Source of the DNA: Arabidopsis thaliana | Taxonomy: Eukaryota; Streptophyta; Magnoliopsida; Brassicales; Brassicaceae | Assembly: GCF_000001735.4 (NCBI RefSeq) | Contig: NC_003071.7 | Coordinates: 17,149,443-17,213,442, forward strand | Length of the DNA: 64,000 nt | Reading direction: 5' to 3' | Shown: piece after piece, positions 57,044 through 63,462 of the stretch | How the letters are laid out: every line of letters starts with the position of its first letter | Numbering within the stretch: position 1 is the stretch's first letter | Notes under the pieces: model-generated | Database searches by the model: none | What the model saw: the letters and a program-made list of their open reading frames with translations, nothing else | What the model was told of the DNA's origin: nothing | Made by a program: the position numbers and the translations under genes

Positions 57044-57098
57044 TGTGCTGTGCTCATGCACTCTTCAATATAAGTGTTTTGTGTAACTAAAACAAAAT

Positions 57099-58050
57099 AT
57101 GGGAAACCTCAAGTCTCTCGTTCTCTTGGCTTTGCTCTTTTCTTTCTCCGTCGCTGTTTTCGCGAACACATCCAACGATGCCACACACGGTATGTACAAC
57201 TCTATATTTGTAGTTCTCTTTTACACTTTCGCGTAACTATGGATTAAATATTTGATCGATGGTGTAAAACATGTATATTATTACACGTGCATCTAAAGAT
57301 GAAGTGAAGCCAAGTACTGAAGCAACCCATGCCATAGAGGCGCAAAAACATGACGGTAAACCCCAGATCGCGGAAGCCCAAGTTGAGGCCAATGACCCTG
57401 TTGTAGAGCCCCAGCAAGACTGGGGTGGCCGTGGTGGTTGTAGGTGGGGATGTTGCGGTGGGTGGTGGCGTGGACGGTGCAGATACTGTTGCAGGAGTCA
57501 AGCCGAGGCCAGCGAGGTTGTGGAAACTGTTGAGCCCAACGATGTTGAGCCTCAGCAGGGTGGCCGTGGTGGTGGCGGTGGTGGTGGCGGAGGCCGTGGT
57601 GGTTGTAGGTGGGGATGTTGCGGTGGGTGGTGGCGTGGACGGTGCAGATACTGTTGCAGGAGTCAAGCCGAGGCCAGCGAGGTTGTGGAAACTGTTGAGC
57701 CCAACGATGTTGAGCCTCAGCAGGGTGGCCGTGGTGGTGGCGGTGGTGGTGGCGGAGGCCGTGGTGGTTGTAGGTGGGGATGTTGCGGTGGGTGGTGGCG
57801 TGGACGGTGCAGATACTGTTGCAGGAGTCAAGCCGAGGCCAGCGAGGTTGTGGAAACTGTTGAGCCCAACGATGTTGAGCCTCAGCAGGGTGGCCGTGGT
57901 GGTGGCGGTGGTGGTGGCGGTGGCCGTGGTGGTTGTAGGTGGGGATGTTGCGGTGGGTGGTGGCGTGGACGGTGCAGATACTGTTGCAGGAGTCAAGCCG
58001 AGGCAAACGAGGTTGTGGAAACTGTTGAGGCCCAACAAGCTAAGCCATGA
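57099..58050 (+). CDS. M17: M17: secreted precursor with four six-cysteine modules
   Basis: Two-exon model (57099-57189, 57299-58050) giving 280 aa. Residues 1-22 (MGNLKSLVLLALLFSFSVAVFA) are a signal peptide. An acidic leader reaches about residue 70. Then come four nearly identical basic modules with cysteine spacing C-x3-CC-x7-C-x2-CC (first Cys at 78, 133, 188, 243; core GCRWGCCGGWWRGRCRYCC). Between modules lies an acidic linker (SQAEASEVVETVEPNDVEPQQ region) and a Gly-rich run. Each 55-aa unit is one 165-bp DNA repeat. The gene has been listed as a late-embryogenesis (LEA-like) gene, At2g41260, but secretion signal, paired cysteines and alternating charge resemble multi-peptide precursors. 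The second-exon start relies on AG at 57297-57298, because the AG used by M10 is lost here. Processing sites are not evident. Confidence 0.88.
57439..58020. repeat. 165-bp in-frame tandem repeat in M17
   Basis: The TGT codon of the first module cysteine recurs at 57439, 57604, 57769 and 57934, exactly 165 bp apart. The units are almost identical; visible differences include GGCGGA versus GGCGGT in the Gly run and GCCAGC versus GCAAAC in the last linker. The period is a multiple of three and the repeat lacks stops in several frames, which creates long spurious antisense and alternative-frame open frames. Confidence 0.95.
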
Positions 58051-58230
58051 ATTGCGTGTAATACAAACTCTCTATGTTTGTATGCATGCATAGCTAATTA
58101 CCATTACGTACGTATGTCAAAATAAAGCAAAAATAGTACCTAAGAAGGTACCTAGAGGTCAATAAAAGAAAACGTAGGTTCATATAATATGTATTTTGTT
58201 ATGTAGTGTTTCTTTTCTCGTGGATGTTAT

Positions 58231-59029: not shown

Positions 59030-59950
59030 GTCTTCTTAGAGACATTTAAAACTCCTATTTTTGGGATATTTTTAACTTTACTATTATTTTTCGTGAAAGA
59101 TATTTGTGAAAAATTGTTGAATGAGGATGGTCAAATAGATATACCCAGTTATCCACTTACATTATTTTCATGTTTCTTTTTATTTGTATTTTCATTTTTT
59201 TTGTGGTTTCATTTCTTACCTTCCAAAACTTCCGAAATTATTCGAAATTACGCCACTACTCTCGGTCAACCTCACGACGATGTCGTTCCTTTTGTACTTG
59301 GCCCAAACCGAATGGATCCAGTCCACTGGCAGTTCCAAGCCACATGTTCAATATGCCTACCCGGCTACTCCGAATTCTGGATCTATTTCTGTTGTCGGAT
59401 AACCCCAAAAGCCTTTCCACAAAAATTTAGTAGTTTTCCTAAAATTTAGACGTTAACCCAGTAATATAGGATTCCACACGTGGTGGCATCGATCGACAAC
59501 TATAAAGTAATCACCGTTTTTACTCCAAACGATGCCTGCGAATGCTATGTTGCTTAGAACTTGGAAGAGTGGTCAATTGTTTCGTAGTTGGGTCATACTT
59601 CATTAGTCTACCGATTCTGTCTCCACTCATCGTACTATCCCTCAATTAATCAATTAAATTAACAATTACGAGCTAATCCATCATATAAACATGCTCCTTT
59701 TATTAATATAAAGTATAAACATGTTCTTTGTTTAAGATAATATAAGATAATTTTAACTCTATAAAGTAGATAACTTCGGTCCGTGGATCGATATCCTATC
59801 CATTGGTCAATCGAAGGGCTTCATTCAGCTCACATGACAAAACCTGATTGGTTACACCACATGTTGTGCCAACTTTAAGAAGGCCCGTATAAGCATCGGC
59901 TATATAGAGGTCACAAGTGGATTTGTCAAAGGCAAGGCCGAACGGACGAA
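59030..59950 (-). pseudogene. Truncated strictosidine-synthase-like pseudogene
   Basis: The minus strand carries a decayed copy of SSL2. 59760-59950 matches SSL2 exon 2 (61900-62094; shared AACTTTAAGAAGGCCC and GATTTGTCAAAGGCAAGGCC on the plus strand), and about 59140-59640 matches exon 3 (61235-61742; shared TTGTACTTGGCCCAAACCGAATGG nearly unchanged). Exon 1 with the signal peptide is absent, exon 2 is cut short, and exon 3 has deletions and frame breaks. Its position after M17 equals that of SSL2 after M10. Open frames on the plus strand here are antisense shadows. Confidence 0.85.
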
Positions 59951-59952
59951 CG

Positions 59953-60070
59953 GTCGTTTTTGGAATGGATAGAAGCTAACATTATCATTTCGAACGGTGG
60001 GTTTGAACTTTTAAGTCCAAGAATAGGACTTTGTGACCACTGGTGGACACGTGTAAACACGATAGGTTAT
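59953..60070. repeat. Duplicated upstream segment, copy B, with G-box
   Basis: Matches 54881-54967. It includes CACGTG at 60048-60053 (GGACACGTGT), an ABRE/G-box type site about 270 bp upstream of M10; the copy A equivalent is changed to GAGACGTGT. The join to the SSL pseudogene is abrupt at about 59951. Confidence 0.65.
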
Positions 60071-60220
60071 GATCAGATCTATTATATATGGTCTCTAAAG
60101 ATCATATAATTTTTTTTTAACATTTTCGTTATAGAAATATCCCTATAAATATATATGCCATTATCTTCGATCACGCGACAAAGTTGACTGGTATCTTGTC
60201 CCCAAGTTTTGCTGCCCAAC

Positions 60221-60228
60221 TATAAATA
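60221..60228 (+). promoter_or_regulatory. TATA box of M10
   Basis: TATAAATA in the conserved context GCTGCCCAACTATAAATA, 100 bp before the ATG at 60321. Confidence 0.6.
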
Positions 60229-60320
60229 CATGTGCTGTGCTCATCATACACTTCACTAACAAAATCATCTTCCCTCAATAAACCAAATAAGCTAAGTGTT
60301 TTGTGTAACGAAAACAAAAA

Positions 60321-60769
60321 ATGGGAAACCTCATGTCTCTCGTTCTCGTGGCTTTGCTCTTTTCTCTCTCCCTTGCTGTTATTGCGGACACATCCAACGA
60401 TGCCACACATGGTGTGTGCAACTCTATATAATATAATTTCCCTTCACACTTTCGCATGATTAAATTTTTATTTTTTTTGGTAACAGATGATTAAATATTT
60501 GATCCATGGTGTATAACATGTATATCACACGTGCAGTTAAAGAAGAAGTGAAGCCGAGTACTGAAGCAACTGATGCTATAGAAGCCGAAGTCGAGGTCAA
60601 TGACGCTGTTGTAGAGCCCCAGCAAGGCTTGCCTGGTGGTGGTTGTAGGTTCGGATGTTGCGGTGGGTACTGGTGGAATGGACTGTGCATATACTGTTGC
60701 CGCAGTCAAGCCGAGGCCAACGAAGTTGTAAAAACTGTTGAGCCTCAGAAGGAAGAAGCTAAGCCATGA
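60321..60769 (+). CDS. M10: M10: single-module paralogue of M17
   Basis: Two exons (60321-60411, 60537-60769), 107 aa. The signal peptide (MGNLMSLVLVALLFSLSLAVIA) and acidic leader follow M17 closely. There is one cysteine module, GCRFGCCGGYWWNGLCIYCC, with spacing C-x3-CC-x8-C-x2-CC (Cys 67, 71, 72, 81, 84, 85). It is less basic than the M17 modules (Arg replaced by Phe-flanking, Asn, Leu and Ile positions), and the spacing differs by one residue. An acidic tail ending EEAKP follows. It lacks the Gly-rich linker and any repeat. Listed as At2g41280, a late-embryogenesis-like gene. It is probably closer to the ancestral form, with M17 arising by internal amplification. Confidence 0.88.
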
Positions 60770-61156: not shown

Positions 61157-63462
61157 TTAGATTTTATACATGCCAGCGAAAGGAGTATTCACCGATCCAA
61201 CCCAAAGAGTTCCATCTTTTTCTTCAACCTCACTTATAGATATCCACTTATTTTCATTTTTACCTTCGAATACCTCTAATATAACGCCACTATCCTCGCT
61301 CAACCTCACGGCCATGCCGTTCCCATTGTACCTGGCCCAAACCGAATGGACCTTCATCCAATCCACCGGCAGGCCCAAAGCGGCACGTCCAAGCCACGCG
61401 TTCGACATGGCGAACTTTGTCAGCTTTGAGTGTTTTGTGTTCAAGCCTACCCAGAATCCGCCACGTGGACTTCTCTTTATGTTGTCTGGAAACCCAGGGA
61501 GCCCCTCCGCGAAAATCTCGTAGTTATCGTGAGATTGAGACTTTACCGACGTTTCGTTGAGCCAGTAACGTAAGATACGACACATGGCGGTCTCGACGAC
61601 GAGAAGGTAATCACCGTTTTGGCTTAAAGCGACACCGTTTACAAACGCTAAGTTGCTTAGAAGAGTGGTCACTTGTTTCGTGTTGTCGTACTTCATCAGT
61701 CTACCAGTTTTGTCCCCACTCATCATCGCCCCTATATAGTTCCTGGAAAAAAAAAACAATTTACGTACTAATAATGCATCATATAAACAAAACAAAAAAA
61801 AAAAACATATAAACAATGATCTTTTTCACTCATATAAAAACATGTTTTTCATTAAATTTCCAAGAATTTTGTACCTCCGTTGATAAACCGAACTACTGTC
61901 GGTAAAGTAGACAACTCCGGTCCGTGGATTGATATCCAAAGAATTGGTAAATCGAAGGGCCTCATTTAGCTCACGTGGTAACACCTGAGTGGCGACACCA
62001 CCTGTTGGGCCAACTTTAAGAAGGCCCATATAAGCATCGGCTATATAAAGGTCACCAGTGGATTTGTCAAAGGCAAGGCCCAATGGTCGTCCACACACGT
62101 GTTCTGTTCGTTGGTGCTCGTGCGGGCCCTCACAACCTTCTCTACATTGAACAAACAAAACATAAATTGCCATCATTAATTGTTCTTCAGAACTATTTTG
62201 GCTATTAATAAGGCCCCGAGTTTAATGAGAAGTTTTATTTGCCACTCTCTCAGTTTCCCAAAAAAAAAAAGTTGTTGTAGAGTTTTTGTTTCCCCTCTCA
62301 GAAAACGGTTATTTCATCTTTTTAGTGTGGCTTTTCAAACCAAATGAATAATTTATCTCTTAGACTCTTACCCAAAACTAATAAACTTGAAACTTAAGTC
62401 ACCACCATGTAAAACTTAGTGGTATATATATATGTACATATATATATAGATATAGTTCTATATTTTAAAATATATATATATTTGAATCTATTTGAATGTG
62501 TCATAGTAGTATTTGCTAGCAAACCCGGACCACCAAAAGTCAATCACGATTCACACATTCTATTTTGTTACTCCCCAGTCATTCTTTAGCTGTCAGCATT
62601 TACTTTACATTTCTCTGAAAAAATTACAACGTTTCACAATACAAGAAAAAAAAAAACTAAAGAAGCAATTAAGTTTCATAGTCAAAATATGCAAATATAT
62701 GCACATGCAGTTGAGTTTTAGAATGCCCCAAAATGGGAACTTCACATGCATGCTAAAATAAAAAAATTGTGATTCAGAAAGTTAAATTTGCAGTTTAGAA
62801 ACAACCAAGTTGACCACGTGATAAGTTGAAGTACAGATGCAGAAACAAAAGAAGTACCTTTCACCGTTACTTCGTTAGTCAGAGACTCAGGAATAATAAC
62901 TAAATCTTGTACTATTTAACATTTTTAATTAAATTAAGCGATTAATACAACAACCCAAATGTAATTCTTCACTGTTAGAAATGCAAAGGAGGTAATGTTA
63001 TCATTATTATTTTTTGTTACGCAAAGGAGGTAATTTTGTTATTCGGATAAGTAAGTCAATAATTTCGATGGGACATAGGAAGTTGGTGGATACAATTGAA
63101 GGAGTTAAAACCACAAAACTAAACGACGAAACAAAAAAACAATCAAAGTTTTTTCTTAAAAATGATGGAGAAATTTGTGAGTACCTTGCGGAGGTGGTGA
63201 CGGCGAAATCGATCCAACGGCTCTCATTAGCTAGCCACTTAACAATTCGACCGTCAGATAAACCGGTGTAAGGACCATCGCCGAAAAAATCAAAGACAAA
63301 ACTCTCCGGTCCCAAAGCTCCGGTGGTAGGAATCAGACGGAAATCAGGGATTTGGACTGTCAACATGGATTCTCCTCCATGTTTTGGTCCCTCACCGGAT
63401 AAATCAGTGACGCTAAAGATAAGGGCAACAGAAGTTGCCACCACCAAGAGGAGTTTCATCAT
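61157..63462 (-). CDS. SSL2: Strictosidine synthase-like protein 2
   Basis: Predicted 376-aa protein from three exons (high to low): 63462-63185, 62141-61875, 61742-61157. Residues 1-20 (MMKLLLVVATSVALIFSVTD) are a signal peptide, so the protein enters the secretory pathway or vacuole. The body matches the six-bladed beta-propeller SSL family: GALGPESFVFD, GRPLGLAFD, LYIADAYMGLLKV, YFTDSSS, NGVALS, GFPDNIKRSPRGGFWVG. True strictosidine synthase makes the alkaloid precursor strictosidine, but Arabidopsis makes no such alkaloids and its SSL proteins are thought to be esterase or lactonase-like or stress-related. Intron 1 is long (62142-63184) with TA-rich microsatellites. A decayed copy lies at 59030-59950. 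It matches At2g41290. Confidence 0.94.
62421..62482. repeat. (TA)n-rich microsatellite in SSL2 intron 1
   Basis: Several TATATATA blocks interrupted by TGTACA and GATATAGTTC lie in the first intron of SSL2. Confidence 0.75.

Follow-up and report, generated by a model that had tools for sequence, protein, structure and literature searches.

The 64,000-nt stretch of Arabidopsis thaliana DNA analyzed here, the whole of which is called the window (contig NC_003071.7, positions 17,149,443 to 17,213,442 of the forward strand), contains the tandem genes M17 and M10, whose cysteine-rich modules are compared below with the cysteine domain of the class II glycine-rich proteins (GRPs). The spliced gene at 57099-58050 is A. 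thaliana M17 (At2g41260), the span being exact for the gene, with one intron of 109 nt. M10 (At2g41280) is a tandem paralog placed ~3 kb downstream of M17 and encodes one variant module. The species and the two gene names are confirmed, because the computed mass and grand average of hydropathy (GRAVY) match the values printed in PMC2292704. M17 is computed at 280 amino acids, 29,558 Da, and GRAVY -0.704 (29,559 Da and -0.704 in print) and M10 at 107 residues, 11,432 Da, and GRAVY -0.011 (11,432 Da and -0.011 in print). The two genes are arranged as follows.

57099..57189, + strand, M17 exon 1 with the signal peptide and first residues, ending in phase 1 (TargetP "secreted" in PMC2292704)
57190..57298, + strand, M17 intron (GT...AG); the mass of the spliced protein matches the published value
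57299..58050, + strand, M17 exon 2 with the DEVKP motif, an acidic N-terminal linker, four repeat units, an acidic tail, and the stop
57427..58036, + strand, 165-nt tandem array of 3.7 copies with 99% matches
57439..57492, + strand, cysteine module 1 (CRWGCCGGWWRGRCRYCC), C-x3-CC-x7-C-x2-CC
57604..57657, + strand, cysteine module 2, identical to module 1
57769..57822, + strand, cysteine module 3, identical to module 1
57934..57987, + strand, cysteine module 4, identical to module 1
60321..60411, + strand, M10 exon 1 with the signal peptide, ending in phase 1
60537..60769, + strand, M10 exon 2 with the EEVKP motif, an acidic linker, one module, an acidic tail, and the stop; the mass equals the published one
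60644-60700, + strand, M10 cysteine module (CRFGCCGGYWWNGLCIYCC), C-x3-CC-x8-C-x2-CC

Both proteins begin with an N-terminal signal peptide, as read by eye, and by the -3,-1 rule the M17 peptide is likely cleaved between VFA and NTSND. Past residue 22, M17 holds 24 cysteines and 13 tryptophans in 258 residues, and glycine makes up 22% of the protein in the form of poly-Gly runs. The tandem array has a score of 1190 at a period of 165 (Tandem Repeats Finder) and is not a chance repeat, because it is the only array scoring at least 200 within the 64-kb window. Repeat units 1-3 differ from one another at 0-1 positions over their first 140 nt, whereas unit 4 differs from them at 19-20 positions over the same length, 2-3 of these lying before offset 111, from which its tail diverges. 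The repeats are too alike in DNA to show purifying selection. Gly-rich runs and acidic stretches separate the modules, with a net charge of -5 over the 29-residue stretch behind each of modules 1-3, and the module itself, counted from its first Cys through the RS that follows its last, has a net charge of +5 in M17 and +2 in M10. A preliminary description of this DNA, made from the letters alone, had proposed a signal peptide followed by four identical six-cysteine modules with acidic and Gly-rich linkers, and this layout is confirmed, as is the single variant module assigned to M10. The term "basic" that it applied to the module is apt for M17 but hardly for M10.

Open frames of 275, 248, and 228 amino acids in other reading frames overlap the M17 array (57244-58093, both strands). 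These are probably a by-product of the repeat, whose 165-nt unit is stop-free and divisible by 3. The G-box ACACGTGC at 57283-57290 lies near the 3' end of the M17 intron (57283-57298), and the M10 intron likewise closes with a ACACGTGC G-box, similar to an abscisic acid-responsive element (60527-60536). The M10 acceptor is a CAG directly behind the G-box; M17 has CAT in this place and uses an AG 6 nt downstream, so that its acceptor is shifted by 6 nt compared with M10 and the junction residues are altered. An RY-type CATGCA stands at 57055, 44 nt 5' of the M17 ATG, and none occurs in the M10 stretch scanned (60000-60560). HSI2/VAL1 binds RY elements, and the element at 57055 may be tied to the effect of HSI2/VAL1 on M17. 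M17 expression is elevated in hsi2 mutants, as is that of other seed-maturation genes, and H3K27me3 is not significantly reduced there (PMC4232687).

The duplication relating M17 and M10 is wider than the gene, since not only the genes align but also the promoter with the 5' leader (aligned bases 89.6% identical), the intron (83.0%), the 3' flank (84.1%), and a neighboring stretch, 59207-59948, which pairs with 61252-62089 (80.1% identity; 65.7% in a gapped blastn alignment). This pair presumably represents a strictosidine-synthase-like gene, and its copy between M17 and M10 (59207-59948) is decayed: each of the three pieces that match contains stops, and the frame changes. The alignments suggest that tandem duplication of an M-gene together with this neighbor gave rise to M17 and M10. 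Over 87 codons, the nonsynonymous (dN) and synonymous (dS) divergences between the two genes are 0.10 and 0.19 by the method of Nei and Gojobori (NG86), a comparison too short to conclude on selection. Over the 32 codons of the modules the values are 0.13 and 0.17 by NG86 and 0.15 and 0.10 by YN00. The M10 and M17 modules are set apart by a one-residue insertion and several changes of charge, and both keep all six cysteines.

The cysteine array common to M17 and M10 recurs in the class II GRPs. The genome was searched in the assembly from which the window is taken (119.7 Mb, 7 contigs), where the GRP family PF07172 gives 16 matches, two of them marked over the cut-off and none at M17 or M10. 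A scan of the PF07172 loci and then of five cluster regions shows that four GRP genes of the chromosome 2 cluster carry a C-terminal C-x3-CC-x6/7-C-x2-CC; the four were picked for having the module. One of them we take to be AtGRP3. The locus number of AtGRP3 is At2g05520 (PMC4777284). In all six genes (M17, M10, and the four GRPs), a signal-peptide-like start is followed closely by a single phase-1 intron, a cysteine module lies near the C terminus, and exon 2 has near its start a related motif, which reads ETVKP, ETVQP, ETVKP, and DEVKQ in the GRPs, DEVKP in M17, and EEVKP in M10. An ETVKP-like motif within the first 14 exon 2 residues arises in 35 of 20,000 shuffles of the exon 2 N terminus of M17 and 23 of 20,000 of that of M10, figures that are to be read with a pattern defined after the sequences had been viewed and with the two paralogs counting as one event.

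An alignment of the modules of M17, M10, the four GRPs, and dodder Crip29 has six cysteines and two glycines invariant. In local alignment to Crip29, M10 scores 67 and M17 scores 62, and the four Arabidopsis GRPs score 60-68 (AtGRP3, 68), so that the M17 and M10 modules are as close to the class II epitope as those of the Arabidopsis GRPs. Full shuffles reach the Crip29 score in 0 of 5000 cases for M10 and 12 of 5000 for M17. By definition, a class II GRP combines a signal peptide with GG(X)3GG repeats and, at its C terminus, a cysteine motif (PMC5852109). The C-terminal domain of M17 and M10 has the same cysteine array and position, with weak similarity beyond the cysteines, and a [GG(X)3GG]n region is absent, the glycines of M17 lying in poly-Gly runs. 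M17 is therefore not classed as a canonical class II GRP, there being no GG(X)3GG region and no PF07172 match. The signal peptide, phase-1 intron, ETVKP-like motif, C-x3-CC-xn-C-x2-CC near the C terminus, and secretory route are thus common to the two groups, and the differences are that M17 carries four modules and each GRP one, that it has poly-Gly runs in place of GGxxxGG as well as acidic linkers and tail, that M10 lacks Gly richness, and that M17 and M10 are both seed-expressed.

Several results count against kinship with the GRPs or against a folded, receptor-binding module. Genes of secreted proteins often have a phase-1 intron behind the signal peptide. When the cysteines are held fixed, shuffles reach the Crip29 score in 150 of 5000 cases for M10 and 533 of 5000 for M17, and the scores against the four GRPs in 168-569 of 5000 and 248-1899 of 5000, respectively. 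A hidden Markov model built from the four GRPs gives 2.7 bits on M17 and 13.5 bits on M10; full shuffles reach these values in 33 and 1 of 2000 cases, and Cys-fixed shuffles in 760 and 44 of 2000, respectively. Whole-genome searches with the GRP module return the four GRPs only and neither M17 nor M10, those with the M10 module return M17 and M10 only and no GRP, and those with Crip29 return no match. PF07172 is not among the Pfam matches of M17 (six families) or M10 (none) at E up to 10, and M10 contains only 8% Gly. M17 and M10 are listed as unstructured once the targeting sequence is removed (PMC2292704), although this measure would leave out cysteine pairing, and the literature searched yielded no report of receptor binding for M17 or M10 or of wall localization for M17.

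These observations bear on the alternative that C-x3-CC-x7/8-C-x2-CC arose independently in Brassicaceae and converged on the class II pattern, with a function unrelated to recognition of the WAK or Crip type. The little non-cysteine signal left by the Cys-fixed shuffles, above all for M17, and the failure of single-sequence genome searches to join the two groups are consistent with convergence, as is the reported restriction of the AtM genes, the group formed by M17 and M10, to Brassicaceae (PMC2292704), the family being judged elsewhere more likely to be specific to Brassicaceae and to lack significant protein domains (PMC9502557). The gene structure and N-terminal motif common to all six genes and the Crip29 scores of M10 and M17 within the range of the four GRPs argue against it. 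Rapid divergence of M10 and M17 over the 32 codons of their modules would also erase non-cysteine signal. The shuffle measure is weak even for accepted members, because AtGRP3 against Crip29 is itself reached by 296 of 5000 shuffles of the Cys-fixed type applied to Crip29. Convergence is in our estimate unlikely; it overlaps the two other alternatives discussed below, and the probabilities attached to the readings do not sum to one. Homology of the M17/M10 module to the class II GRP cysteine domain is likely on the basis of architecture plus cysteine array, and it is not proven by residue similarity. Among the open-licence papers listed by the literature searches, none tied AtM proteins to class II GRPs, and the available account of the AtM group in PMC2292704 does not contain it.

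The dodder protein CrGRP is a class II wall protein (PMC8096328). Its 21-residue cysteine peptide, Crip21, activates the tomato receptor CuRe1, and replacement of Cys 7, 17, 20, or 21 lowers or abolishes the activity (PMC7576778). All four positions are aligned to cysteines in M17 and M10. The Crip21/Crip29 core GCCGG...G.C..CC is common to M17 and M10, and M10 in addition has the NG and the x8 spacing, whereas CrGRP starts with C-x4-CC instead of C-x3-CC and has a single module. Substitution of Ala 11 of Crip21 by Tyr, the tomato residue, abolishes CuRe1-dependent activity (PMC7576778); M10 has Tyr at this position and would therefore not be expected to trigger CuRe1. In Arabidopsis, binding to the WAK1 ectodomain requires the AtGRP3 cysteine domain (PMC4777284, PMC4783359), and AtGRP3 is located mainly in the cell wall (PMC4783359).

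M17 and M10 are known in print as late embryogenesis abundant (LEA) proteins, and they constitute the AtM group of Hundertmark and Hincha in 2008, with TargetP "secreted" already assigned and expression in seeds (PMC2292704). The AtM proteins have since been shown within the secretory pathway (PMC8698616, citing Candat 2014), so the secretion of M17 is not new. M17 has also been termed "Glycine-rich" (PMC1088960), M10 serves as a marker gene (PMC12415678), and early leaf senescence is described in one line expressing a rapeseed M10 homolog (PMC5787830). The LEA label corresponds to an alternative in which M17 is a hydrophilic seed-maturation protectant of the secretory pathway or apoplast, the modules giving only bulk or redox properties. 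Seed expression, the GRAVY of -0.704, and a place among the 51 Arabidopsis LEA genes (PMC2292704) agree with a protectant, as do the rise in hsi2 mutants together with other seed-maturation genes (PMC4232687) and the predicted lack of structure without the targeting sequence (PMC2292704). M17 (LEA21) and M10 (LEA22) are also found by mass spectrometry in the heat-stable proteome as dry-seed-specific proteins and are not detected after imbibition (PMC8347141). In the same study M17 and M10 have the least predicted disorder (16.4% and 12.1%) among the 17 detected LEA proteins assessed, which speaks against a protectant, although three seed LEA proteins that escaped detection are at 0, 3.3, and 13.9% (PMC8347141). 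Also against a protectant, neither protein matches a LEA Pfam model at E up to 10, M17 has the 24 cysteines and 13 tryptophans noted above, and the GRAVY of M10 is -0.011. The LEA grouping rested on hydrophilicity, expression, and the lack of other homology, with no Pfam domain, and neither gene is induced by stress in leaves (PMC2292704). A pure protectant role thus appears improbable. The preliminary description had set M17 apart from the LEA proteins on account of its signal peptide and cysteines; the secretory route, the Cys-rich repeats, and the absence of a LEA model uphold this, and the view that M17 is not a classical LEA protein is supported. The signal peptide alone does not exclude the label, because three LEA_4 proteins in the same table as M17 and M10 are also predicted to be secreted (PMC2292704).

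The same description had likened M17 to the Ib-AMP precursor of Impatiens, from which a further alternative follows, namely a polyprotein whose cleavage along the secretory or vacuolar route would release four Cys-rich antimicrobial or signaling peptides. Ib-AMPs have the pattern CC-x8-C-x3-C with four cysteines, and their precursor holds several peptides and acidic propeptides (PMC10136942). The layout of M17 resembles it, with a signal peptide, repeated basic peptides rich in Trp, Arg, and Cys, and acidic spacers, the four modules standing behind the signal peptide and the acidic (-5) stretches behind modules 1-3. The pattern of the ~20-residue four-cysteine peptide is absent from M17, whose C-x3-CC-x7-C-x2-CC contains six cysteines. 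M17 scores 57 against Ib-AMP1 (reached by 187 of 5000 Cys-fixed shuffles) and 54 against Ib-AMP4 (454 of 5000), a weak likeness, and M10 shows none (2813 and 3536 of 5000, respectively). The Ib-AMP comparison fits the layout and not the module, and kinship with Ib-AMPs is not upheld; the class II GRP cysteine domain, a candidate absent from the preliminary description, is the better match, because Ib-AMPs have four cysteines and M10 is dissimilar.

Processing into peptides can be considered apart from this kinship. In M17, an Asn that precedes Asp or Glu stands on either side of every module, with no Asn within the module, and cuts at these candidate sites would give four module fragments of 49, 55, 55, and 46 residues. 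Legumain (vacuolar processing enzyme), which cuts after Asn, would be the likeliest protease, the linker sites being only suggestive as its targets. Dibasic processing was rejected, as neither M17 nor M10 has a dibasic site. The M10 module contains an internal Asn and is hardly basic, and the near identity of units 1-3 in DNA means that the identity of the copies reflects recent duplication or homogenization and not selection for a peptide. Small CrGRP fragments of 2-4 kDa are ascribed to unspecific degradation during extraction (PMC7576778) and thus provide no precedent for programmed release, and no report of M17 processing was found in the literature searched. Release of free peptides from M17 is possible but unsupported, and to the polyprotein alternative we assign a low, if appreciable, probability. 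A variant that we consider quite unlikely is that M17 is a store of four Crip21-like modules in the maturing seed from which, on imbibition or attack, legumain would cut at the Asn-Asp/Glu linkers to free peptides of 46-55 residues acting on WAK-type or leucine-rich repeat receptors at the embryo surface. Such a store, if real, would be the plant's own, dosage-amplified equivalent of the epitope in the GRP cysteine domain.

In Pfam, M17 matches CoV_S2_C, a coronavirus spike tail model, over four stretches with E 1.9e-7 and 31.8 bits (cut-off, 27). This match was rejected as one of composition, M10 being without it, and is probably driven by clustered cysteines summed over the four copies. Its best stretch covers M17 residues 81-111, with three further stretches, and makes for misleading automatic annotation. 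None of the remaining five Pfam families of M17 reaches its cut-off, and NCBIfam gives a single match for M17, at E 1.2 over residues 1-117, and no match for M10. A search of PDB sequences with M10 lacking its signal peptide found a single match (E 6.2), which was attributed to chance. AlphaFold2 models calculated without alignment depth have a mean predicted local distance difference test score of 62 for M10 (78-83 in the module blocks) and 65 for one M17 unit (78-81 in the module); these models predict no reliable fold, and Foldseek with the M10 model finds 0 matches in the PDB at E up to 10.

The explanation modestly favored over its negation is that M17 is a secreted, Cys-rich, seed-specific protein of seed maturation whose four tandem modules derive from, or are closely akin to, the class II GRP cysteine domain of AtGRP3 and dodder CrGRP, acting as an intact protein at the wall or plasma membrane. 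Each module would fold alone with three disulfides, with the Gly-rich and acidic linkers serving as flexible spacers. In the maturing embryo, intact M17 would be placed at the wall or the plasma membrane, with storage vacuoles as another possible site. The four modules would confer avidity for a surface partner, such as a WAK-type or other receptor, or alternatively M17 would cross-link the wall matrix as the seed dries. The protein would then be broken down on imbibition, free peptides, if any, being secondary.

Lists of late-embryogenesis proteins have included M17 since 2005 or earlier (PMC1088960). If its module is the class II GRP cysteine domain, M17 would be a candidate for a multivalent receptor ligand or a cross-linker of the wall, and the role of M17 in the seed would be testable with known partners (WAK1 and KAPP) and with Crip21-type peptides. 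M17 would then represent a natural tandem version of a domain that is single in the four GRP genes examined.
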